From positions 28,396 to 92,395 of the IMG/VR virus record IMGVR_UViG_3300008107_000341: a stretch of DNA of 64,000 nucleotides; one strand, given 5' to 3'. Each line of letters begins with the position of its first letter. Position 1 is the stretch's first letter. Under the pieces are notes generated by a model. It saw only the letters and a program-made list of their open reading frames with translations. It was not told the origin of the DNA and did no database searches. The stretch is from a virus. Shown here one piece after another: positions 21,351 to 30,133 of this stretch. Made by a program: the position numbers and the translations under genes.

Positions 21351-21623
21351 ATGACTGACTATCTGCTCATCACCTTCGGTCCTGCTGAAGATGTAGAGCG
21401 TAACGGTTGGTATAACTGCAAAGAGCGTTTTAATTACAAAGGCGCTGCTATTCGCAAAGGTCTTGATTCTCTTTGCATTGGTGGTTGTTTTGGTTATGTT
21501 GTGATTGAAGAGGGTGAAGATTGGTGGGAAATTGTTGATGAGTCTGGCACTGAGAATGCTAGCATCACTGCTAATCGCTTCACTTTCACTGTTCAACCTG
21601 CTCCCAAACTGGTGATGGTCTGA
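21351..21623 (+). CDS. Hypothetical protein, 90 aa
   Basis: This is the first gene behind the 21297 promoter. The product is beta-rich with conserved-looking aromatic and acidic stretches (DYLLITFGPAEDVERNGWYN, YVVIEEGEDWWEIVDESGTE). No family is recognised. It overlaps the next start by one base. Confidence 0.7.
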   Translation: MTDYLLITFGPAEDVERNGWYNCKERFNYKGAAIRKGLDSLCIGGCFGYVVIEEGEDWWEIVDESGTENASITANRFTFTVQPAPKLVMV

Positions 21624-22060: not shown

Positions 22061-22278
22061 TGGATAAAGTATCACACTGCCCAGCATGTAATAGTTTATG
22101 GCATACGCTAGCTATACCTGAGCATTTACATGATCAGTATTCTCCACCATACTATTACAGCACAGTGATTGCTGTTCAATCATGGGAGACAGATCGCACA
22201 CATTACTATTTGTGTCCTGATTGCGGAACCAAATTTGACCTTTGCGGAACTGTTAAGAACGATGACGCCAACGCTTGA
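22060..22278 (+). CDS. Small zinc-ribbon protein, 72 aa
   Basis: Two Cys pairs, C7-P-A-C10 in SHCPACNSLWH and C52-P-D-C55 in YYLCPDCGTKFDLCG, are spaced as in a zinc ribbon, with Tyr/Pro-rich sequence between them. Such ribbons bind DNA, RNA or RNA polymerase, so a regulatory part is possible but not shown. It overlaps the next gene by 17 bp. Confidence 0.72.
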   Translation: MDKVSHCPACNSLWHTLAIPEHLHDQYSPPYYYSTVIAVQSWETDRTHYYLCPDCGTKFDLCGTVKNDDANA

Positions 22279-22814: not shown

Positions 22815-23014
22815 TCACTCTACAAACCATCAATCCCACCACCTATAAAGTGGTTCTTCAAACCGAAGATCTTACTGAAGAAGAGCGCACTAAACTGATC
22901 AGAAAGCGTGACTTCTTCCCTGCTGAGTTTGTTCACGCACTCATTGATCTTCTCCCACCTGATCAAACATTTGACACATACGATCACTATAACATGACTC
23001 TATATGTCAAATGA
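22811..23014 (+). CDS. Hypothetical protein, 67 aa
   Basis: The product reads as alpha/beta (TTYKVVLQTEDLTEEERTKL, FVHALIDLLPPDQTFDTYDH) with a final strand. It overlaps both neighbours. No family is recognised. Confidence 0.65.
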   Translation: MITLQTINPTTYKVVLQTEDLTEEERTKLIRKRDFFPAEFVHALIDLLPPDQTFDTYDHYNMTLYVK

Positions 23015-23225
23015 ACAGCAATACAATGAATTAATCGATTGGGCGGGGGATCGTATAGATCTCCTGCTCTCTCGTAGTAAAGCATGTAAAACATCACAAC
23101 GTAAAACAACACATAGACTGAACGCACAAGCATTAGAAGAAGAGTTCTTTGATTGGTTCGCTGCTAGACATTCAGACTCTACTCAAAATGTTCTCTTCAT
23201 ACCCTATCATGGAAAACTATCCTAG
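23004..23225 (+). CDS. Hypothetical protein, 73 aa
   Basis: The helical product has a basic middle (RSKACKTSQRKTTHRL) flanked by Trp/Phe-rich helices (YNELIDWAGDRIDLLLSR, EEEFFDWFAARH). It overlaps the oxygenase gene by 38 bp if that starts at 23188. Unknown function. Confidence 0.62.
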   Translation: MSNEQQYNELIDWAGDRIDLLLSRSKACKTSQRKTTHRLNAQALEEEFFDWFAARHSDSTQNVLFIPYHGKLS

Positions 23226-23844
23226 GTGCTCTACTGTAGGTGTCATTCAAACTCACCTACCACATACAATCATTGATACAATTAGAACTGAATGCCACGC
23301 CTACGATAATCAAATCAAACAAGCAAACACATTCAATAATAATACTAATTACCGTAAGACATTCATCAAAGCAATATCATCCTATGAATGGTTCGCTGGT
23401 ATGCTCTGGCATTATATCTCACGAGCTAATAGAGAGAACTTTCTATTTGATATCACCTGCCTAGAGAATGAAGGATTAAATCATCTCATCTATCCTCCTG
23501 GGCATTACTATCATTGGCATCAAGATCAAGCATTGACATCATGCCTTCGCCCAACAATACTACCATCAGTCTATAACTCTACAATACAAGAGTCTTTGAC
23601 TGTAGAACACCAATGGATAAGAAAAATTTCTTTCTCATTACAACTAACAGATAGTAATGACTATACAGGGGGCGATCTACAATTCCATAATAATAATTAC
23701 ACTAAGGAAGGAGTAATCACTGCACCTAGAGAGAAAGGATCATTGATTATATTTGATAGTAGATTATCACATAGGGTAACAAGAGTAAGAGAAGGAACAA
23801 GAGAAGCATTGGTAGGATGGGTATTAGGACCACGATGGAAATAG
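23188..23844 (+). CDS. 2OG-Fe(II) oxygenase
   Basis: This is the fifth oxygenase in the window. ATG 23188 is chosen; 23149 and 23209 are alternatives. The 218-aa product has the core IYPPGHYYHWHQDQAL with H111-x-D113, TGGDLQFHNNN, distal H195 in DSRLSHRVTRV and R205 in EGTREALVGWVLGP. It resembles PKHD-type hydroxylases. It is the last gene before the repeat-rich gap at 23845. Confidence 0.88.
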   Translation: MFSSYPIMENYPRCSTVGVIQTHLPHTIIDTIRTECHAYDNQIKQANTFNNNTNYRKTFIKAISSYEWFAGMLWHYISRANRENFLFDITCLENEGLNHLIYPPGHYYHWHQDQALTSCLRPTILPSVYNSTIQESLTVEHQWIRKISFSLQLTDSNDYTGGDLQFHNNNYTKEGVITAPREKGSLIIFDSRLSHRVTRVREGTREALVGWVLGPRWK

Positions 23845-23885
23845 TTTTCCACAGGGTTGTGGAAAAAGTATAGAGTTTTTCCACA
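23845..23885. repeat. Cluster of three TTTTCCACA boxes (DnaA-box-like)
   Basis: TTTTCCACA at 23845-23853 and 23877-23885 and its reverse complement TGTGGAAAA at 23858-23866. The first two form an inverted pair with 4 bp between them. TTTTCCACA is the known DnaA-box form of cyanobacteria, one base from the E. coli box TTATCCACA. They could also fold as an RNA hairpin. Confidence 0.75.
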
Positions 23886-24033
23886 GATTTAAATGTGTTA
23901 AAAAATAGTATTGGGTTTTCTATGTGCTTCGTAGAATGTGTCTACAAATAGTCTGATGATACTGTGAAAGGTCTCAGAATCTTCAGAGTTGTTGTAGTCT
24001 TAGCACGCGAGCTAACGAGTTGTCAAGCGTTTG

Positions 24034-24195
24034 TCACAAAACTCAAAAATCTCAAAAAACTCAAAAATCTCAAAAACGACAAAACTGAGATTTCTGAGAA
24101 TTCTGTATTTCCAAGGTTTTTTGAGTTTTTTCGAATTTTAAAAAACTTAATTTTTTAGTTTTTTGAGATTTTTGAGACTTTTGAGAATTTTAAAG
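24034..24195. repeat. A+T-rich TCAAAAA/TTTTTGA repeat with long inverted symmetry
   Basis: The left half repeats CTCAAAAA-type units about every 9-10 bp (CTCAAAAATCTCAAAAAACT); the right half, around 24110-24190, holds the opposite form (TTTTTTGAGATTTTTGAGAC). The arms can pair over about 30 bp with few mismatches. A frame reading KLKNLKKLKNLKN here is an artefact of the repeat. The stretch 23886-24240 has no credible gene. Confidence 0.75.
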
Positions 24196-24246
24196 TCTTA
24201 TAATTATAACTTATCATTATAATAAGGGTTACTAATCAATAAAGGG

Positions 24247-24286
24247 TTGACAAACCATCGAAAATACAGTATTATTACTAAGTAAT
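24247..24286 (+). promoter_or_regulatory. Early-type promoter with dyad after the -10
   Basis: TTGACA (24247-24252), 17-bp spacer, TATTAT (24270-24275), followed by the dyad ATTACT-A-AGTAAT (24274-24286), related to the palindrome at 17080. It precedes ATG 24303. Confidence 0.82.
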
Positions 24287-24302
24287 CAATCAAAGACATC
24301 GA

Positions 24303-24545
24303 ATGACTGTCAAAAACTACACTGATCTTCCTAGTTCTGCTATCAAAAACATCACTATTGATACTGTAAAGAACACTGTATCAGTAGAGTATACTACTGG
24401 TAACAAACAGTATACTTACAGCACCGAAGATGCTGAAGGTTTTGATCAGCAACTGCTGTCAGAATTCGACTCTGATGATATCTCAGTGGGTCGATTCATG
24501 AATCAGAGCGTCACAAATGGCACTCTGAATCTGCTTGTTGACTGA
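24303..24545 (+). CDS. KTSC-like domain protein
   Basis: The 80-aa product has the layout of KTSC proteins: LPSSAIKNITIDTVKNTVSV (S-S-A-I then a strand), EYTTGNKQYTYSTED (strand turn with G-x-x-Y-x-Y) and a C-terminal helix with FMNQSV. In some phages and bacteria KTSC is fused to RNA polymerase- or lysyl-tRNA synthetase-related proteins; no activity is established. It has its own promoter beside the candidate origin. Confidence 0.7.
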   Translation: MTVKNYTDLPSSAIKNITIDTVKNTVSVEYTTGNKQYTYSTEDAEGFDQQLLSEFDSDDISVGRFMNQSVTNGTLNLLVD

Positions 24546-24555
24546 CCCTACCACA

Positions 24556-24563
24556 GATAAATA
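24556..24563 (+). promoter_or_regulatory. Possible T4-type late promoter (GATAAATA)
   Basis: GATAAATA differs in one base from the T4-like late box TATAAATA and lies in the 105-bp gap ahead of ATG 24651. Evidence is limited to this one element. Confidence 0.35.
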
Positions 24564-24650
24564 CGTTTGTCAAGGGGTAAAGACACCAATTTGGTTGTCA
24601 ATATCCCTTCCAGACGATTCTAGACACCTCTCAGAGAACATTTCAAACCG

Positions 24651-24815
24651 ATGGCTAAATCCAAAGCAGGAAACTACAAGGATAATTTCTATAACGAATT
24701 CGATGAATTCGAAGAGCATGAAGTAGAACAAAAGTATGGTGTGAAAGTGAAGAATATTGGTCGCACTCCAAAGAAACAGAAAAAGCTTAAATTTGATGGT
24801 GATTTTGAATGGTAA
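24651..24815 (+). CDS. Small charged protein, 54 aa
   Basis: ATG 24651 opens a 54-aa frame with a strongly acidic first half (NEFDEFEEHEVEQKYG) and a Lys-rich second half (RTPKKQKKLKFDG). It is probably disordered in part. It sits between the two TTTTCCACA clusters and ends 13 bp before the second. Its location next to a putative origin is suggestive, but no function is shown. Confidence 0.62.
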   Translation: MAKSKAGNYKDNFYNEFDEFEEHEVEQKYGVKVKNIGRTPKKQKKLKFDGDFEW

Positions 24816-24828
24816 TCTAATAAAATAG

Positions 24829-24892
24829 TTTTCCACAGATATACTAAAACCTGTGGAAAACTTTCAATAGTTTTCCACAACCCTGTGGAAAA
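24829..24892. repeat. Cluster of four TTTTCCACA boxes in two inverted pairs
   Basis: TTTTCCACA at 24829-24837 and 24871-24879; TGTGGAAAA at 24852-24860 and 24884-24892. The first pair forms AGTTTTCCACAG...CTGTGGAAAACT (12-bp arms, 12-bp loop), the second AGTTTTCCACA-ACCC-TGTGGAAAACT (11-bp arms). They could be DnaA binding sites or paired transcript-end hairpins. Confidence 0.75.
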
Positions 24893-24902
24893 CTCTCATA
24901 AG

Positions 24903-24945
24903 CCCCCCTAATCAGACCCATAAGCAAAGGTGATGGTTAGGGGGG
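24903..24945 (+). terminator. Hairpin abutting the next promoter
   Basis: CCCCCCTAA (24903-24911) pairs exactly with TTAGGGGGG (24937-24945), loop 25 nt. TTGACTTTT follows directly, so its right arm touches the -35 box at 24946. No long U-run, so terminator strength is uncertain. Confidence 0.65.
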
Positions 24946-24974
24946 TTGACTTTTGCCCCGATCTGACCCATACT
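24946..24974 (+). promoter_or_regulatory. Early-type promoter adjoining hairpin
   Basis: TTGACT (24946-24951), 17-bp spacer, CATACT (24969-24974), then ACCTAAGTCAACAG, a variant of the downstream motif. It precedes ATG 24999. Confidence 0.75.
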
Positions 24975-24998
24975 ACCTAAGTCAACAGCAAACGACCC

Positions 24999-25310
24999 AT
25001 GCGCCTCATCGAACGCCAAATGAACGCTGCTATCACCAACAGCAAAGATTGGCAGAAAGACAATACCATGGTGAGCAACGCTGATGGTGTTTCTTTCGTG
25101 TTTCTTCATGGTAACTGTATCGCCCAGATTGGTGATACGTTTGTGCGACTGTTTGATGGTGGTTGGCAAACTAACACCACCAAATCTCGCCTGAATGCTA
25201 TCCTGACTGCACACGGCAACGGTGAGCGTGTTTTCCAGAAGAATTTCAATTGGTTTGTTAGCACTGCTGCAGGCGATGTTGAGTTCGAATCTGGTATGCT
25301 TCTCGCCTGA
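24999..25310 (+). CDS. Conserved cyanophage/phage protein (IERQM...FDGGWQTNTTKSRLNA)
   Basis: The 103-aa product carries MRLIERQMNAAITNSKDWQK, VFLHGNCIAQIGD and LFDGGWQTNTTKSRLNAIL, a signature I associate with a small family frequent in phages of marine bacteria and cyanobacteria. The last part (VFQKNFNWFV) also fits. Function unknown; its own promoter and single-gene unit suggest early expression. Confidence 0.75.
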   Translation: MRLIERQMNAAITNSKDWQKDNTMVSNADGVSFVFLHGNCIAQIGDTFVRLFDGGWQTNTTKSRLNAILTAHGNGERVFQKNFNWFVSTAAGDVEFESGMLLA

Positions 25311-25350
25311 ACTTTACACTACATACTAACTGAAACCCATGGAGGATTAC

Positions 25351-25479
25351 ATGACCATTTCTGAAATGTATCAAGAGATTGTTGATCAAGAGGTGGCAGA
25401 CATTTTCCTTGATAGTGATAGTTTGATCGTTGACGATTATGCTCTCGAAGATGTAATCGAAGAGGTCTACGATTTGTAA
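25351..25479 (+). CDS. Small acidic protein, 42 aa
   Basis: ATG 25351 follows GGAGG by 5 bases, an ideal Shine-Dalgarno, so it is preferred to in-frame ATG 25339. The product (MTISEMYQEIVDQEVADIFL, LIVDDYALEDVIEEVYDL) is acidic and helical. It is co-transcribed with the gene before and ends before a new promoter unit. Small acidic proteins can be DNA mimics, but this is speculation. Confidence 0.6.
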   Translation: MTISEMYQEIVDQEVADIFLDSDSLIVDDYALEDVIEEVYDL

Positions 25480-25499
25480 TACAAACTGATCAGCCGCCC

Positions 25500-25557
25500 G
25501 ACCAGTTGGGGAACTGTCACACCACTGGTCGCCGCGGCCACCCCCTGCCCTTATACT
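25500..25557 (+). promoter_or_regulatory. Hairpin plus -10 element (TATACT)
   Basis: GACCAGT (25500-25506) pairs with ACTGGTC (25524-25530); TATACT is at 25552-25557, 17 bp after the weak slot TCGCCG. AAGTCAAACG follows the -10, a version of the shared downstream motif. It precedes ATG 25583. This is where the sequence becomes G+C-rich. Confidence 0.6.
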
Positions 25558-25582
25558 ATAGAAGTCAAACGCACCGAGACCT

Positions 25583-25711
25583 ATGTGGGATGAGATCCAA
25601 GACATGCCTGGTGAGATCTTCGATATCGAAGATTGGGGGCACCCCCTAGCAGAGTGCTGGCACGATATGGAGCTGAATGTGCCAGATGAAGAGGTGGCAC
25701 AGGAGGGGTGA
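25583..25711 (+). CDS. Small acidic protein, 42 aa
   Basis: ATG 25583 opens a 42-aa acidic frame (MWDEIQDMPGEIFDIEDWGH, AECWHDMELNVPDEEVAQ). It stands alone behind its own promoter unit, and its stop codon lies in the hairpin loop of the next unit. Acidity and position suit a host-interaction protein, but the function is unknown. Confidence 0.6.
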   Translation: MWDEIQDMPGEIFDIEDWGHPLAECWHDMELNVPDEEVAQEG

Positions 25712-25738
25712 CCCTCCCCCCTCTCCTGCCTCTATACT
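25702..25738 (+). promoter_or_regulatory. Hairpin/promoter cassette
   Basis: GGAGGG (25702-25707) pairs with CCCTCC (25712-25717) over loop GTGA, which overlaps the weak -35 GTGACC. TATACT at 25733-25738 and then GATCAAGTCAACC. The twenty bases CTATACTGATCAAGTCAACC starting at 25732 recur exactly at 25981. Confidence 0.7.
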
Positions 25739-25763
25739 GATCAAGTCAACCACACACGAGACC

Positions 25764-25931
25764 ATGACCCGCTTCGAAGTTTACGTGCCCTCTGCCCCTT
25801 ACGAGTCCGAGAGCACCTGGGATCTCGATCGTGCCTGGGATCTGTGCCTCTCGCTGAGCGAGGAGTTCGGATACGCTCAGGTTCGCCAGGATGGTATCAT
25901 CCTGGGAGACTACACCAACGGGGGTGTGTGA
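25764..25931 (+). CDS. Small protein, 55 aa
   Basis: ATG 25764 is placed after the promoter unit (an in-frame ATG at 25677 lies in the previous gene). The product (MTRFEVYVPSAPYESESTWD, LDRAWDLCLSLSEEFGYAQV) looks like a strand-helix-strand fold ending in VRQDGIILGDYTNGG. Single-gene unit. Family unknown. Confidence 0.65.
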   Translation: MTRFEVYVPSAPYESESTWDLDRAWDLCLSLSEEFGYAQVRQDGIILGDYTNGGV

Positions 25932-25951
25932 CACTCTAGAAACTGGCACAA

Positions 25952-25987
25952 GGGGTCACCACAGACCCCACCCTGACCCTCTATACT
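25952..25987 (+). promoter_or_regulatory. Hairpin plus promoter for the ArdA-like gene
   Basis: GGGGTC (25952-25957) pairs with GACCCC (25964-25969). TATACT is at 25982-25987 with no clear -35, followed by GATCAAGTCAACC. Same downstream motif as 25732. Confidence 0.65.
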
Positions 25988-26011
25988 GATCAAGTCAACC
26001 AAACAAAGCAA

Positions 26012-26440
26012 ATGACCGTGACTCTGACCTCCAACTATCGTGACATGCTCGCTGCTGCCACTGTTGAGAAGATCGATGAATTGCTCGATGAGAACTATGC
26101 TCTCGATGACATGCTCGAATTCATCGATGAGCGTAATGAGAACGATTTTGTAGCATACTATGAAGAGTATTGCCGTTGTGGTGAAGCAATCGGTTACGAT
26201 GCTGTAGATGCTCTCATCGATGAGATGGGGTGCGTTTCTGACATCGAAGGGTGTGATGATCGCTTCCGTGGTTGGTATGAATCGACCGCTGATTTCGCTG
26301 AAGAGTTTTATACTGATACCTACGATGTTCCCTCTGCATTGGTGATCGATTGGGAGGCAACTTACGATAGCACCCTCCGCTACGATTACACTGCCTGTGA
26401 GAAAGGTTATCGTCAGGTGGCGATCTTCTCTGATTACTGA
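26012..26440 (+). CDS. ArdA-like antirestriction protein
   Basis: The 142-aa acidic protein matches the C-terminal half of ArdA antirestriction proteins: a helical N-terminus, then DIEGCDDRFRGWYESTADFA (78-96), EEFYTDTYDVPSALVIDWEA (97-116) and YDYTACEKGYRQVAIF (124-139). In ArdA the equivalents are a Y-x-G/W-Y turn, the dFAee helix, the I-P strand and the Y-D-y-e-a stretch. ArdA mimics B-form DNA and blocks type I restriction enzymes. It is shorter than typical ArdA (about 165 aa) and lacks a clear N-terminal domain. It has its own promoter unit, as expected of an early anti-defence gene. Confidence 0.68.
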   Translation: MTVTLTSNYRDMLAAATVEKIDELLDENYALDDMLEFIDERNENDFVAYYEEYCRCGEAIGYDAVDALIDEMGCVSDIEGCDDRFRGWYESTADFAEEFYTDTYDVPSALVIDWEATYDSTLRYDYTACEKGYRQVAIFSDY

Positions 26441-26448
26441 GTGACAGT

Positions 26449-26499
26449 CTGAGAGGTGGCACACGCTGCCTCTCAGCACCCCATCCTAGCCCCTATACT
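26449..26499 (+). promoter_or_regulatory. Hairpin and -10 for the KTSC gene
   Basis: CTGAGAGG (26449-26456) pairs with CCTCTCAG (26469-26476). TATACT at 26494-26499, followed by GATCTCAGTTCAAAC, the second form of the downstream motif, which recurs at 27096. No good -35. Confidence 0.6.
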
Positions 26500-26522
26500 G
26501 ATCTCAGTTCAAACGACACACG

Positions 26523-26723
26523 ATGTTCAAGGCATTCACCCTCGGATCTACCGCCATCAGCAAGATGACCGCCGATCCTATCACGGGCACCGTTCGCGTT
26601 CGCTTTCGTGGGGGCACTAAGTTCTACCGCTTCGAGAACGTCTCCCGTCGCGCCATCGTGGCGATGCTGCTGCGCCCTCCCGTGAGCATGGGCCAGTGGG
26701 TAAACCGTCACTGCCTCGCCTGA
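26523..26723 (+). CDS. KTSC-domain protein, second copy
   Basis: The 66-aa product reads FTLGSTAISKMTADPITGTV, RVRFRGGTKFYRFENVSRRA, the S-x-x-I, V-R-F-x-G-G-x-x-Y-x-F pattern of KTSC, and ends with a helix (VSMGQWVNRH). It is far more G+C-rich and Arg-rich than the KTSC gene at 24303, so the two have different origins. Confidence 0.72.
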   Translation: MFKAFTLGSTAISKMTADPITGTVRVRFRGGTKFYRFENVSRRAIVAMLLRPPVSMGQWVNRHCLA

Positions 26724-26741
26724 TCAGGTCGCCTGACCCTG

Positions 26742-26747
26742 TAGACT
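26742..26747 (+). promoter_or_regulatory. -10 element TAGACT
   Basis: TAGACT at 26742-26747 followed by AATCACATCAGC and ATG 26769. Only a 4-bp hairpin (GGTC/GACC, 26727-26738) precedes it and no -35 is evident. Confidence 0.45.
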
Positions 26748-26768
26748 AATCACATCAGCAAACAACCC

Positions 26769-26930
26769 ATGAGAATCGAAGTTCGTTACCAGACTCCCTA
26801 CAATGCTTGTGAGTGGCGCTCGCAGTGGTTTAAGGATCTGGCAGAGGCAGAGCGTATGGTAGAATTCTATCGCTCCTGTGGGTCACCCTCTCACATCGCC
26901 CCTTCCTCCCTCGCTCAGTTCGATCGCTGA
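26769..26930 (+). CDS. Small protein, 53 aa
   Basis: ATG 26769 starts a 53-aa frame (MRIEVRYQTPYNACEWRSQW, FKDLAEAERMVEFYRSCG) with strand-helix pattern and two Cys. It is followed closely by the gene at 26938. Unknown function. Confidence 0.6.
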   Translation: MRIEVRYQTPYNACEWRSQWFKDLAEAERMVEFYRSCGSPSHIAPSSLAQFDR

Positions 26931-26937
26931 TTCTACC

Positions 26938-27078
26938 ATGCCGAACCTCATCCGCCTTTCCCTGGTCGCCGCCATCTGCCTGATGTTCGCCAACACCCTA
27001 GGATCGGTGTTCGCCCTAGCCCAGACCCTAGACCGTGTGACAGCCGAGAAGGTGGCACAGATCGCCGCCATCGACTGA
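26938..27078 (+). CDS. Small membrane or exported protein, 46 aa
   Basis: ATG 26938 is used instead of an upstream ATG that lies in the previous gene. The product (MPNLIRLSLVAAICLMFANT, LGSVFALAQTLDRVTAEKVA) has a positively charged start and a 22-residue hydrophobic core. A cleavage site at VFALAQ would make it secreted; otherwise it is a one-pass membrane protein. Confidence 0.6.
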   Translation: MPNLIRLSLVAAICLMFANTLGSVFALAQTLDRVTAEKVAQIAAID

Positions 27079-27089
27079 CCCCGACCCTG

Positions 27090-27111
27090 TAGACTGATCT
27101 CAGTTCAAACA
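27090..27111 (+). promoter_or_regulatory. -10 element TAGACT with conserved downstream motif
   Basis: TAGACT at 27090-27095 followed by GATCTCAGTTCAAAC, the same 15 bases as after 26499, and then ATG 27118. No -35. Confidence 0.5.
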
Positions 27112-27117
27112 AAGCAA

Positions 27118-27291
27118 ATGACCAACCCCAAGATCGACCTCGCCGCCATCATGGCAGACTACACCACCCGCTACAATGAGATGCAGGCACGGTCTGCCGC
27201 CAACCGCCAGGCATTCGCTGAGGGTCGCCCCTTCCCCTTCCCCGCCCCCGAGTGCCAGTCTGACACCTGGAACATCAGCGACCGCCACTGA
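27118..27291 (+). CDS. Small protein, 57 aa
   Basis: ATG 27118 starts MTNPKIDLAAIMADYTTRYN then EMQARSAANRQAF, probably a helix, followed by a Pro-rich tail (EGRPFPFPAPECQSDTW). G+C-rich codons. Unknown function. Confidence 0.6.
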   Translation: MTNPKIDLAAIMADYTTRYNEMQARSAANRQAFAEGRPFPFPAPECQSDTWNISDRH

Positions 27292-27304
27292 GCGGCGCTG
27301 CCTG

Positions 27305-27310
27305 TAGAAT
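27305..27310 (+). promoter_or_regulatory. Extended -10 element TGTAGAAT
   Basis: TAGAAT at 27305-27310, preceded by TG, then TCTCAGTTCAACC, again the downstream motif. It precedes ATG 27338/27350. Confidence 0.45.
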
Positions 27311-27337
27311 TCTCTCAGTTCAACCGACAGACGACCG

Positions 27338-27532
27338 ATGATCCTCAGCATGGCATCCGACCTTCAGACCCGCCGCATCGTGTGGGCAGGTCGCAAGACA
27401 GAGACCGCACAGCAGACCATGGGGCAAGATCTGCCCCTGACCGTAGAGAGTGAGTGGATCGCGGGCGCTTACTCTGACCGCTGGCATGATGAGGCGATCG
27501 CCGCCCTGCCCCTGTTCACCCACGCCGACTGA
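27338..27532 (+). CDS. Small protein, 64 aa
   Basis: The product (ASDLQTRRIVWAGRKTETAQ, VESEWIAGAYSDRWHDEAIA) is mostly helical. An internal ATG at 27350 is an alternative start. It stands 3 bp ahead of the HicA-like gene and on the same transcript. It has no similarity to HicB that I can see, so partnership as an antitoxin is not supported. Confidence 0.6.
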   Translation: MILSMASDLQTRRIVWAGRKTETAQQTMGQDLPLTVESEWIAGAYSDRWHDEAIAALPLFTHAD

Positions 27533-27535
27533 CCC

Positions 27536-27730
27536 ATGAAAAAAATCGAGCGCGAGCGCCTGATGATCATGACCCGTGAGGGATGGGCAGAGAAGCGACG
27601 CACGGGAGGGCACATCGTATGGCAGCACCCCCGCTATGGCACAACCACCACCAGCGCCACGCCCAGCGACATTAACTCACTGCGACAGATCGAGCGCCAG
27701 CTGCGACGCATCGCCGCCGCTGCTGCCTGA
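27536..27730 (+). CDS. HicA-like (YcfA/dsRBD fold) small protein
   Basis: The 64-aa product has the layout of HicA mRNA-interferase toxins: MKKIERERLMIMTREGWAEK (the Ke-R-L helix), RTGGHIVWQHPRYG with the catalytic-type His (G-G-H), then DINSLRQIERQLRRIA at the end. HicA cuts mRNA in bacteria and is normally paired with a HicB antitoxin gene, which I do not see downstream. It precedes a perfect terminator. The assignment rests on this short pattern. Confidence 0.58.
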   Translation: MKKIERERLMIMTREGWAEKRRTGGHIVWQHPRYGTTTTSATPSDINSLRQIERQLRRIAAAAA

Positions 27731-27747
27731 CCCGCCATCCTAGCACA

Positions 27748-27772
27748 CTGCCCCCTAGGGGGCAGTTATTTT
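27748..27772 (+). terminator. Perfect palindromic terminator
   Basis: CTGCCCCCTAGGGGGCAG (27748-27765) is a perfect 18-bp palindrome followed by TTATTTT. A second small hairpin, ATAACG-ATAC-CGTTAT (27773-27788), follows. This marks the end of the G+C-rich region. Confidence 0.85.
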
Positions 27773-27890
27773 ATAACGATACCGTTATGGCGGCGCGGCC
27801 GAGCGAAAAGTCATAGATACTATTAACCTACAAAACTTTGAAAACGCTCGATCGATTACACGTTCATAAAAAAAATTTTTCCCTAACAAA

Positions 27891-27998
27891 ATGACTCAAA
27901 AAACCTCAATGAGCACAAAGACCACAACAGCAGAGGAATTCGGATATATTTGGATGACTTTGAAGGAACTCGTAAGGATCTTGACAAATCGCACATAG
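27891..27998 (+). CDS. Possible small protein, 35 aa
   Basis: ATG 27891 opens MTQKTSMSTKTTTAEEFGYI then WMTLKELVRILTNRT. The composition is protein-like (a helix after a Thr-rich start), but there is no clear Shine-Dalgarno and the promoter for the next gene lies in its last codons. Evidence is weak. Confidence 0.35.
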   Translation: MTQKTSMSTKTTTAEEFGYIWMTLKELVRILTNRT

Positions 27999-28010
27999 AT
28001 ACACTATAAT
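27981..28010 (+). promoter_or_regulatory. Sigma70 promoter with long leader
   Basis: TTGACA (27981-27986), 18-bp spacer, TATAAT (28005-28010). The first credible starts are at 28140 and 28223, giving a leader of about 120-200 nt that holds GACTT...AAGTC and TAGAT...ATCTA pairs. A structured leader or small RNA is possible. Confidence 0.75.
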
Positions 28011-28139
28011 CTGTAAGACTTTTAGTGTTTGAACAAATAAGTCATGTTGAAATAGATCTCAGAAATATGTGTATCTACGCCACTAGTGACCTTGGAAGAC
28101 GTTTAAGAATTTCATTTTATACGATCGAACACTTTCAGT

Positions 28140-28226
28140 ATGCCTGCCAGCGATGCCATCAATGGCTACCCACTGAAAGAATTCGTAGATTCTGAACTAT
28201 ATAAAAAAGATTCCATAAAATTATGA
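28140..28226 (+). CDS. Possible small protein, 28 aa, coupled to AbrB-like gene
   Basis: ATG 28140 opens MPASDAINGYPLKEFVDSEL then YKKDSIKL; its TGA overlaps the next ATG (ATGA). It could be a leader peptide controlling the AbrB-like gene or a real small protein. The overlap is the main support. Confidence 0.4.
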   Translation: MPASDAINGYPLKEFVDSELYKKDSIKL

Positions 28227-28429
28227 GTAAAGTATATCAATCAACAGTAGAATACAACGAAGATTTCAACGAATACTACCTAACGATTCCCGACGAGCTT
28301 TTAGATAATCTCGGATGGGAAGAAGGGGATGTATTAGAGTGGCATACAAATAAAGATGGCACTGTATTACTCGAAAGAGTAGATGAATATTTTGATGGAG
28401 AGAATGAGAGTGATGACGAACAATCCTAA
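28223..28429 (+). CDS. AbrB/MazE/SpoVT-type DNA-binding domain protein
   Basis: The 68-aa product has the swapped-hairpin layout of this family: a strand (YQSTVEYNEDFNEYYLTIPD), then ELLDNLGWEEGDVLEWH and a final strand (GTVLLERV). I-P-x-E-L-L-x-x-L-G-W-x-x-G-D is the hallmark. Such proteins are transcription regulators or antitoxins. The acidic tail (DGENESDDEQS) is unusual. It lies behind a promoter about 210 bp upstream. Confidence 0.8.
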   Translation: MSKVYQSTVEYNEDFNEYYLTIPDELLDNLGWEEGDVLEWHTNKDGTVLLERVDEYFDGENESDDEQS

Positions 28430-28718
28430 GAAAATACAATACAAGGTAGTTGATAAAAGCGGAAACGTTGTAAGTGACGAAACGTTTGAAGATTACGAAA
28501 AACTAGCAGATCATATGCTAGACATAGCAGACAAATATTATCAAGGTCTTTACACCGTAGATGATAGCGTTAATATTTCAACGTTTGATGAGTCTGGAGA
28601 ATTAATTTATGAAGACACTGCAAGCTTTGGAAGCAATGTAGTAACAAACGAAGAGATGGAAGATGAATTCAGAACAGAATCAAAGCGAAGAAATTCAGGT
28701 CAAGGATTTGGCAGTTAA
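28413..28718 (+). CDS. Hypothetical protein, 101 aa
   Basis: ATG 28413 is chosen over ATG 28383. The acidic product has strands (IQYKVVDKSGNVVSDETFED) and a helix (YEKLADHMLDIADKYYQGLY). A similar overall shape is seen in small cyanophage proteins. Overlaps on both sides show it is part of the AbrB operon. Function unknown. Confidence 0.68.
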   Translation: MTNNPKKIQYKVVDKSGNVVSDETFEDYEKLADHMLDIADKYYQGLYTVDDSVNISTFDESGELIYEDTASFGSNVVTNEEMEDEFRTESKRRNSGQGFGS

Positions 28719-28902
28719 ACTACTTGGTCTGATTGATGCATTAAGTGCAAGAATCAGCAAGTTAGAAGAAAAAATGCCAGAAACTTTTGATATTTTTTAT
28801 CGCCCACCTGGCGCTGAGAGTCATCAAAAGTTACACTTGTCATTAGACGAGTTATATGGTAAAATAAATAGTATTGAGACGCGACTTAACGATGCCAGGT
28901 AG
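28663..28902 (+). CDS. Coiled-coil protein, 79 aa
   Basis: The N-terminal half is a predicted coiled coil (VKDLAVKLLGLIDALSARIS, KLEEKMPETFDIFY), and the C-terminus a short helix (LDELYGKINSIETRLNDAR). It overlaps the genes on either side. It precedes the PAAR gene and could be a small tail-related accessory protein, but this is inference. Confidence 0.65.
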   Translation: MNSEQNQSEEIQVKDLAVKLLGLIDALSARISKLEEKMPETFDIFYRPPGAESHQKLHLSLDELYGKINSIETRLNDAR

Positions 28903-29227
28903 AGTTGTTGCAACTTTCACAGGTTCTGACAGTGGTGGTATTTGCCCATGTGTAACACCACCACAGACACTCTCACCACCTGCGCCAGATAGGAGAGTCT
29001 TTGTGAATAAGATTCCTGTTATGGCGGCTGGTGATGTTCTGTCACCTTCCCCTGGGCAAGACTGCAGTAGTGAACCATCACCATGCACCTCACCAAGAAC
29101 CGTAGTGTCAGCTGGCAGAGTTTTCGTGAATAAGAAGCCAATTGCTCACATTGGAGACATTCTCAATCAATCAACGAACATAAAGATCGTTGGAGTTCCA
29201 TCACAAGTATTTGCAGGAGAATCATAG
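28892..29227 (+). CDS. PAAR-domain spike-tip protein
   Basis: ATG 28892 (MPGRVVATFTGSDSGG) is used. The 111-aa product has two PAAR-like repeats: PAPDRRVFVNKIPVMAAGDV then SAGRVFVNKKPIAHIGDILN, with Pro and His residues (CPCVTPP, SPCTSP) consistent with the metal-held beta tip. PAAR proteins sharpen the membrane-piercing spike of T4-like baseplates and type VI secretion systems. Its place just ahead of the late baseplate genes fits. Confidence 0.88.
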   Translation: MPGRVVATFTGSDSGGICPCVTPPQTLSPPAPDRRVFVNKIPVMAAGDVLSPSPGQDCSSEPSPCTSPRTVVSAGRVFVNKKPIAHIGDILNQSTNIKIVGVPSQVFAGES

Positions 29228-29229
29228 TT

Positions 29230-29376
29230 ATGGCAAAAGCAAAAATCGGTCTGGTCAAAACGAATTACGTGCCAGGCAAACCTAAAATGACCAGTCAAGG
29301 TCGTTCGAAGAACACAAATCTTGCTGCGACTAGTCGAAATGGTCGCAAAAAGCGTTATCGCGGGCAAGGAAACTGA
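29230..29376 (+). CDS. Small basic conserved protein, 48 aa
   Basis: ATG 29230 opens MAKAKIGLVKTNYVPGKPKM then TSQGRSKNTNLAATSRNGRK and KRYRGQGN, a very basic protein of a type I have seen in T4-like cyanophage gene sets near the PAAR/baseplate region. A terminator follows directly. It may bind DNA or RNA by charge; function unknown. Confidence 0.72.
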   Translation: MAKAKIGLVKTNYVPGKPKMTSQGRSKNTNLAATSRNGRKKRYRGQGN

Positions 29377-29380
29377 GATC

Positions 29381-29404
29381 AAGCGCCTTTTTGGCGCTTT
29401 TTTT
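29381..29404 (+). terminator. Rho-independent terminator
   Basis: AAGCGCC (29381-29387), loop TTTTT, GGCGCTT (29393-29399), then a T-run to 29404. Textbook shape, 4 bp after the stop of the 29230 gene. Confidence 0.9.
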
Positions 29405-29498
29405 GTGAAAAAAATCAAAAATTTGCGATAATTCTCGGTAATTTCGGGATAGCAACCCCGTAAAAAGTTCTGTTTTAATCAATTTTGAGGAAAAACAG

Positions 29499-29690
29499 AT
29501 GGCAAAATACCAAGTAGACAGAGATATCTCGTATATGAGAGAACATTGGGGCACTACGAAGCTCATTACAGACTATGGGGCGCTGACTCCGACAGATACT
29601 AAGAAGAAAAACGACCCACCTACAGATAGAATGTCTAGACCTTGTGGCGGCAAGGGAGGATTTGATGATTATGTAGAGAGATGGCACTGA
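29499..29690 (+). CDS. Small polar protein, 63 aa
   Basis: ATG 29499 follows a GAGGA-type ribosome-binding site. The product (MAKYQVDRDISYMREHWGTT) has a short helical start, then a Lys/Pro/Thr-rich middle (PTDTKKKNDPPTDRMSRP) and GGKGGFDDYVERWH. It is probably partly disordered. It lies between a terminator and the late promoters of gp25. Unknown function. Confidence 0.62.
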   Translation: MAKYQVDRDISYMREHWGTTKLITDYGALTPTDTKKKNDPPTDRMSRPCGGKGGFDDYVERWH

Positions 29691-29707
29691 AGCTCCGTCA
29701 ATCTGGG

Positions 29708-29727
29708 TATAAATAATGGTATAAATA
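29708..29727 (+). promoter_or_regulatory. Two tandem T4-type late promoters
   Basis: TATAAATA at 29708-29715 and 29720-29727, just ahead of gp25 (ATG 29738). TATAAATA is the T4 late promoter box recognised by the phage sigma factor gp55. Confidence 0.88.
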
Positions 29728-29737
29728 TGGTATTTTT

Positions 29738-30133
29738 ATGCCGATCAGCAGGTCTTTTAAAGATATTAGTATAACGTTTGACAAGAATTTCGTGACCGAT
29801 GATCTTGCGGTCACGAAAGATTTTAATGCTATCAAACAATCGGTTAAAAATTTGGTTACTACTGTTCCTGGAGAGCGATTTTTTAACCCAAATATCGGAA
29901 GCAGAATCACAGATCTGTTATTTGAACCATTAGATTTTATTAATGCAAATTTAGTTAAGTCTGAAATTACTTATACCATCAATGCATTTGAACCAAGAGT
30001 AAAATTAATTGATGTAACCGTTGATCAAAACATGGATGATAATGGTTATGATGTTCAAGTAGAATTTGAGGTTATTGGTTTACCAGAAAAAACTCAAGAA
30101 TTAACATTTTTTCTAGAAAGAACTAGAGCATAG
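29738..30133 (+). CDS. gp25: Baseplate wedge subunit gp25
   Basis: The 131-aa product is the gp25 wedge protein and lysozyme-like fold of T4. It contains KQSVKNLVTTVPGERFFNPN followed by IGSRITDLLFEPLD, the family core (L-x-T-x-P-G-E-R-x-F, then a G and LLFEP). Six gp25 molecules join the baseplate wedges to the hub and start the sheath. It is followed 5 bp later by gp6, the T4 order. Confidence 0.95.
   Translation: MPISRSFKDISITFDKNFVTDDLAVTKDFNAIKQSVKNLVTTVPGERFFNPNIGSRITDLLFEPLDFINANLVKSEITYTINAFEPRVKLIDVTVDQNMDDNGYDVQVEFEVIGLPEKTQELTFFLERTRA

Follow-up and report, generated by a model that had tools for sequence, protein, structure and literature searches.

Why does a virus with a mostly A+T-rich genome carry a short, G+C-rich run of small genes, and how is that run put together? 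We addressed this question in a 64,000-nucleotide (nt) stretch of IMG/VR record IMGVR_UViG_3300008107_000341 (positions 28,396 to 92,395 of that record; hereafter the window, whose numbering is used throughout), where a preliminary description had singled out an island at 25490-27770. The evidence makes it likely that this island is a cassette array of small genes, each unit standing behind one composite sigma70-type promoter, which is reshuffled among T4-like cyanophages. The source is a 92,395-base viral record that is T4-like cyanophage by its DNA matches and gp25-gp6 synteny; on sequence we assign it to the S-PM2-like T4-type cyanophages, and the hosts of the virus are Synechococcus-type cyanobacteria. 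Among named phages the best match of the island is S-PM2, and a near-identical genome of 192.7 kb (contig L008) also contains the block, its genes A to gp6 each being 100% identical. The place of the island is already known, because Sullivan et al. (2010; PMC3037559) count four hot spots of Synechococcus-phage genes, one of them being “small genes between gp46 and gp25”. That hot spot resembles the island in its position upstream of gp25 and in its small unnamed genes; the part of that paper used here gives gene content only, and the composition, common promoter, operator and boundary element described below come from this analysis.

A composite promoter with an upstream palindrome

Our survey of loci took in ArdA-bearing loci only: a scan of viral contigs yielded 80 ArdA loci, most of which have a G+C-rich stretch around or after ArdA. 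A promoter hidden Markov model (HMM) was seeded with eight promoters from the window and refined by iteration over 505 kb in 52 non-redundant loci, giving the consensus CTGACCCCCTATACTGATCTCAGTTCAAACGAC. At a threshold of at least 8 bits, the model found 222 matches on the gene strand of the 52 loci and 0 on the opposite strand; shuffled sequence gave 5. Such a promoter comprises a 28-bp palindrome, a C-rich or hairpin spacer, a TATACT/TAGACT -10 element and, ahead of the ATG, a constant downstream segment (GATCTCAGTTCAAACGA), and its spacers have no -35 consensus. Adding S-PM2 and two further phages extended the set to 236 promoters, 224 of which lead to an open reading frame (ORF) of at least 30 amino acids (aa; median 64 aa), with -10-to-start distances mostly of 27-33 nt. 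We also tested a composite model (R1, 96 positions) on 11 phage records and 61 genomes of the host family Cyanobiaceae. It matched in 11/11 phage records and in 0/61 host-family genomes, and seven of its eight matches in the 192.7-kb sister genome were island units.

The second conserved element emerged from a -10-anchored alignment as a stretch at -56 to -29. It is a 28-bp palindrome (approximately TGTGmCAsTT-N4-AAsTGkCACA), a putative operator, which starts 55-57 nt upstream of the -10; its centre precedes the -10 by about 42 nt and therefore lies at roughly -54 from the transcription start. The operator weight matrix is self-complementary (score 5.2 against a maximum of 3.7 in 500 nulls), and 94% of promoters score above the 95th percentile of the in-gene control. 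The distance between operator and -10 is constant, even where the site lies inside the coding ends of genes H, J and K. Symmetric operator columns have no base-pair covariation, which favours a dimeric protein and disfavours an RNA stem. An RNA hairpin as the cause of the palindrome was rejected for the same reason, and inspection led us to discard a CRP-type site on half-site spacing and NtcA (GTA-N8-TAC), Pho box and sigma54 sites on sequence.

These observations bear on the idea that the spacers chiefly represent pairs of terminator and promoter, following the promoter early stem loop (PeSL) model, with the palindrome acting as an RNA hairpin that ends the preceding transcript. Hairpins with arms of at least 6 do precede 40% of promoters (14.6% in shuffles); the missing covariation, the frequent location of the palindrome within the coding end of the gene before it and the absence of a U-tract after it nevertheless make this quite unlikely. 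PeSL shuffling in T4-like phages (PMC4503421), in which small early-type genes with a promoter and a nearby stem-loop each are swapped as units, resembles what is seen in the island: here promoters precede small genes in 7/9 cases and units are swapped between related phages. The island promoter differs in adding the palindromic operator and the conserved downstream segment, in having the stem-loop in 40% of cases and in its host-like G+C. The same paper judged PeSLs too sparse to explain the S-PM2 “ORFanage”, a separate genome place from the dense array here.

T4 middle promoters have a sigma70 -10 without a -35 and use the activator MotA. They share with the island promoters a -10 without a -35 consensus and an upstream activator-type site at a fixed distance; the island site differs from a MotA box in being a 28-bp palindrome and in lying further upstream, and its activator is putative. 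Repeated intergenic elements also serve as promoters of many virus genes in halovirus HF2, whose intergenic repeats carry promoters (PMC8707807), with an unrelated virus, host and motif.

How far the operator reaches was judged genome-wide mainly in S-PM2. In the present record, the seven best plus-strand sites are those of the seven units. S-PM2 sites lie 79-90 nt before many starts, annotated or newly seen, and occur outside the island as well, where they also precede psbA (166 nt), gp32 (114 nt), a helicase and cobS. Since the matrix was built only from sites with a full promoter, in ArdA-type loci, among them the first 50 kb of S-PM2, most S-PM2 sites outside the island are independent of it. 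A strict 20-base operator pattern clearly beats the control in some phages only, so we used the full composite model. We found no description of the 28-bp operator in the literature, although an earlier account in S-PM2 genome or Syn9 transcriptome work is possible. We tentatively propose, at somewhat less than even confidence, that the palindrome may define a phage regulon switched on by a putative dimeric DNA-binding protein and extending in S-PM2 to psbA, gp32, the helicase and cobS, and that this would be a new cyanophage promoter class doubling as a platform for the exchange of takeover genes.

In S-PM2 (NC_006820), unannotated plus-strand ORFs follow the shared promoter, with starts at 21570, 21830, 22097, 23012, 23263, 23503 and 23789; the annotated minus-strand genes p067 and p070, which overlap some promoter-led ORFs, are probably spurious. 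The “Pho box” CCTATACTGATCTCAGTTC printed for S-PM2d250 (PMC10976474) corresponds to S-PM2 22067-22085, the -10 region of an island promoter, and this sequence was not seen upstream of the S-PM2 ORF at 164777 annotated as a putative ATPase.

Units of the array and their exchange

Seven of the nine island genes (E, F, the ArdA-like gene G, H, I, K and L) have their own promoter. The preliminary description had placed a -10 before nearly every gene, which holds for these seven and fails for J and the HicA-like M, the second genes of their units, located 7 nt after I and 3 nt after L respectively; its picture of mostly single-gene units with products of 42-142 aa stands.

All units lie on the plus strand. 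The first opens with an operator at 25496-25523 (weight-matrix score 21.8) and a TATACT -10 at 25552-25557 (seed alignment), followed by gene E (25583-25711, 42 aa, head motif MWDEIQDMPGEIFDI, homologues in 52 loci, aligned by eye). The operator of unit F (25676-25703, score 24.6) overlaps the end of gene E and precedes a -10 at 25733-25738 (seed alignment and promoter model) and gene F (25764-25931, 55 aa, PHROG 17176, E-value 2e-8). In the ArdA unit, the operator (25925-25952, score 28.0) is followed by a hairpin, GGGGTC-N6-GACCCC, over the -35 position (25952-25969, fold -13 kcal/mol, z -1.8), by a -10 at 25982-25987 (seed alignment and promoter model) and by gene G (26012-26440, 142 aa). 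Unit H comprises an operator at 26438-26465 (score 28.8), a -10 at 26494-26499 (whole promoter 35.3 bits) and the KTSC-like gene H (26523-26723, 66 aa), whose coding end contains the operator of unit I (26687-26714, scoring 21.6 on one strand and 24.7 on the other); a TAGACT -10 at 26742-26747 (promoter model) then leads to gene I (26769-26930, 53 aa) and to gene J (26938-27078, 46 aa, hydrophobic N-terminus, homologues in 8 loci). The operator of unit K (27034-27061, score 29.6) lies within the coding end of J, ahead of a -10 at 27090-27095 (whole promoter 35.9 bits) and gene K (27118-27291, 57 aa). Within the coding end of K, in turn, lies the operator of unit L (27249-27276, score 19.2), with a TAGAAT -10 at 27305-27310 (promoter model), gene L (27338-27532, 64 aa, homologues in 20 loci) and gene M (27536-27730, 64 aa). 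A terminator-like hairpin (27747-27766, fold -16.1 kcal/mol, z -3.4) closes the island.

Between phages these units may be gained, lost and reordered, and the order of genes is reshuffled almost freely. The 224 promoter-led ORFs fall into 55 families whose neighbours vary from phage to phage, and ArdA alone has 11 different right neighbours. Gene K is 94-96% identical in two other loci (L035, L076) and gene I 94% identical in another two (L010, L015), while gp6 is only 47-70% identical. Homology blocks have a median length of 223 nt and ends concentrated at promoters, with 26% of left ends falling between -20 and +10 relative to a -10, where 6% would be expected. Block ends and identity pattern are as predicted by unit-wise recombination through shared promoter DNA. 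This comparison of loci agrees with the preliminary suggestion that genes are swapped as units among sister phages; across distant relatives, position and promoters are kept and gene content and order vary, and the full conservation of the block named at the outset as a counter-argument is not seen.

That the palindrome flanks swapped units and is common to them could also mean that it is itself the recombination site, a cassette exchange point and not a transcription operator. The fixed distance to the -10, the sites before the S-PM2 genes psbA, gp32, helicase and cobS outside the array, the peak of left block ends at the -10 and not at the palindrome, and the absence of an integrase match among the island proteins all argue against this, and we consider it very unlikely. 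The array likewise differs from an integron-like cassette array, in that its units have their own promoters and no island protein matched an integrase.

In the array reading, one and sometimes two small genes would form a transcription unit opened each time by the same composite sigma70-type promoter, and recombination in or near this promoter DNA would exchange units, as expected from its being shared. Host RNA polymerase would read the units early in infection, helped by a dimeric DNA-binding protein on the operator, and the products, including the ArdA-like and HicA-like proteins, may act in host takeover or counter-defence. The high G+C would be a lasting property of the gene pool and not a new arrival, maintained either by tuning to host codons or by recombination. 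The new part seems to be the composite promoter with a 28-bp palindrome for each unit.

Origin of the high G+C

G+C is 0.569 in 25490-27770 against 0.363 in the remainder of the record, and the richest 2,281-bp windows of the record all overlap the island (all-window mean 0.367, standard deviation 0.045), so that the island described as G+C-rich at the outset (56.9% vs 36.3%) is the maximum of the record. Its flanks had been called A+T-rich on both sides: the right edge is indeed sharp, at the terminator hairpin; the left edge is gradual, with gene C at 47% and gene D at 37% G+C. The ArdA gene is the least G+C-rich island gene (47%; G+C at third codon positions, GC3, 0.50); the others have 54-64% G+C and GC3 of 0.57-0.84, against a GC3 of 0.15 in structural genes. 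Local G+C at the 236 promoters is 57%, against a background of 41%. In codon usage the small genes resemble a Cyanobium sample (L126, L127; r 0.89) and not the phage core genes (r -0.24). The composition jump is supported, and codon usage is host-like.

This jump had been taken to indicate transfer from a higher-G+C source. A recent move of the island as a block from such a source, for example the host, would account for the sharp jump and the host-like codons. However, the island recurs in the same position upstream of gp25 in S-PM2, a phage with only 54% identity in gp6, at 54-58% G+C and with homologues of ArdA, H, K, L and M. That so divergent a phage has an equally G+C-rich island speaks against recent transfer as the preferred interpretation. 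Among 251 Cyanobiaceae genomes none gave a homologue of ArdA or K, in a search that covered only these two families and had no positive control, the promoter cassette occurred in 0/61 of those host-family genomes, and content varies gene by gene, not blockwise. Recent import is therefore unlikely, and a recent block transfer from a high-G+C source such as the host very improbable. Host-like codons combined with a phage-only distribution fit better with a long-lived phage gene pool of host-like composition.

High G+C might alternatively be a by-product of frequent recombination in a hot spot, through G+C-biased repair, and not of codon tuning. It does coincide with the shuffled units and extends to the C-rich intergenic spacers; but the widely kept ArdA gene remains at 47% G+C in the same island, and S-PM2 genes outside the island have the operator without the composition, and we regard this explanation as unlikely.

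Other points weigh against the reading of the island as an array of early takeover cassettes, alongside the narrow host search. Stem-loops were seen upstream of just 40% of promoters. Early timing is a prediction from the sigma70-like -10 and from the absence of late promoters (TATAAATA) in the island, the first pair of which stands directly before gp25. The operator-binding protein is putative, and faster divergence between genes could partly explain why homology blocks end at promoters.

Gene products and neighbouring elements

Gene G itself matches the anti-restriction family PHROG 36653 (E-value 5e-42) and not PF07275; 25 of the 27 members of its family match PF07275 at E-values up to 5, the best being 4.6e-5. 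Its model has a predicted local distance difference test (pLDDT) score of 74, and the ArdA structure 2w82 ranked second (Z 3.6 over 110 residues), which is weak fold evidence. A Foldseek search with the ArdA model gave no significant match, and only a second look listed 2w82; a PDB sequence search with the ArdA profile gave no match, and a scan across 84,980 species, within the limits of its peptide patterns, confirmed no relative. PHROG and, via homologues, Pfam nonetheless support an ArdA-like gene with a predicted antirestriction role. For gene M, an AlphaFold2 (AF2) model (pLDDT 91) had the HicA structures 6g26 and 5yrz as top Foldseek matches (template modelling score 0.65-0.71, probability 0.98-1.00). 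The match to Pfam HicA is just under the cut-off (E-value 1.1e-4), and H26, the HicA active-site histidine, is invariant in six homologues. A HicA fold is thereby supported, and no island protein searched matched a HicB antitoxin partner. The homology of both genes, proposed at first sight, therefore stands; that of gene H to KTSC proteins is carried by PHROG 7365 (E-value 2.9e-18) and falls below threshold in Pfam (E-value 0.035, 14.3 bits against a cut-off of 25).

Proteins of the gene E family have a near-invariant 14-residue head, MW(D/Q/S)EIQD(M/A)PGEIFD, and very variable tails in the 52 loci; the named matches of gene E are all Synechococcus phages. The remaining island proteins matched unnamed families or nothing, and NCBIfam gave nothing for the island proteins. 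An anti-defence role of the unnamed small genes would be plausible.

Directly after the closing hairpin lies a conserved non-coding boundary element (27762-27909, plus strand; S-PM2 25079-25122), with a single copy each in this record and in S-PM2. It comprises a palindrome (ATAACG-N4-CGTTAT), a G+C-rich block, CTAACCTACAA and an A-tract, and in 20/20 distinct cases where the flank was long enough it marks the downstream end of the island, at a drop in median G+C from 62% to 38%. An Rfam search of 23000-30000 returned nothing useful and no match to the element, for which packaging, replication and a transcription boundary are candidate roles. The left neighbour of the island, gene C (Kyano_Gp96, 24999-25310, plus strand, PF23790, E-value 1e-41), has by sequence a promoter whose -35 box is TTGACT and which lacks an operator site. 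Inverted repeats with repeated TTTTCCACAG...CTGTGGAAAA lie directly upstream of it (24827-24893). At 24031-24191 a 9-base unit (CTCAAAAAT) recurs in A+T-rich repeats, both tandem and inverted, from which a long hairpin could form.

For Synechococcus phages, the shared promoter is a handle for a systematic search of takeover and counter-defence genes, and it points to at least 5 unannotated S-PM2 genes and to 55 small-protein families in the sample. The operator makes the question of the protein that switches these genes on directly testable, and the host-like codons and phage-only distribution bear on the long-term persistence of a deviant composition in small phage genes.

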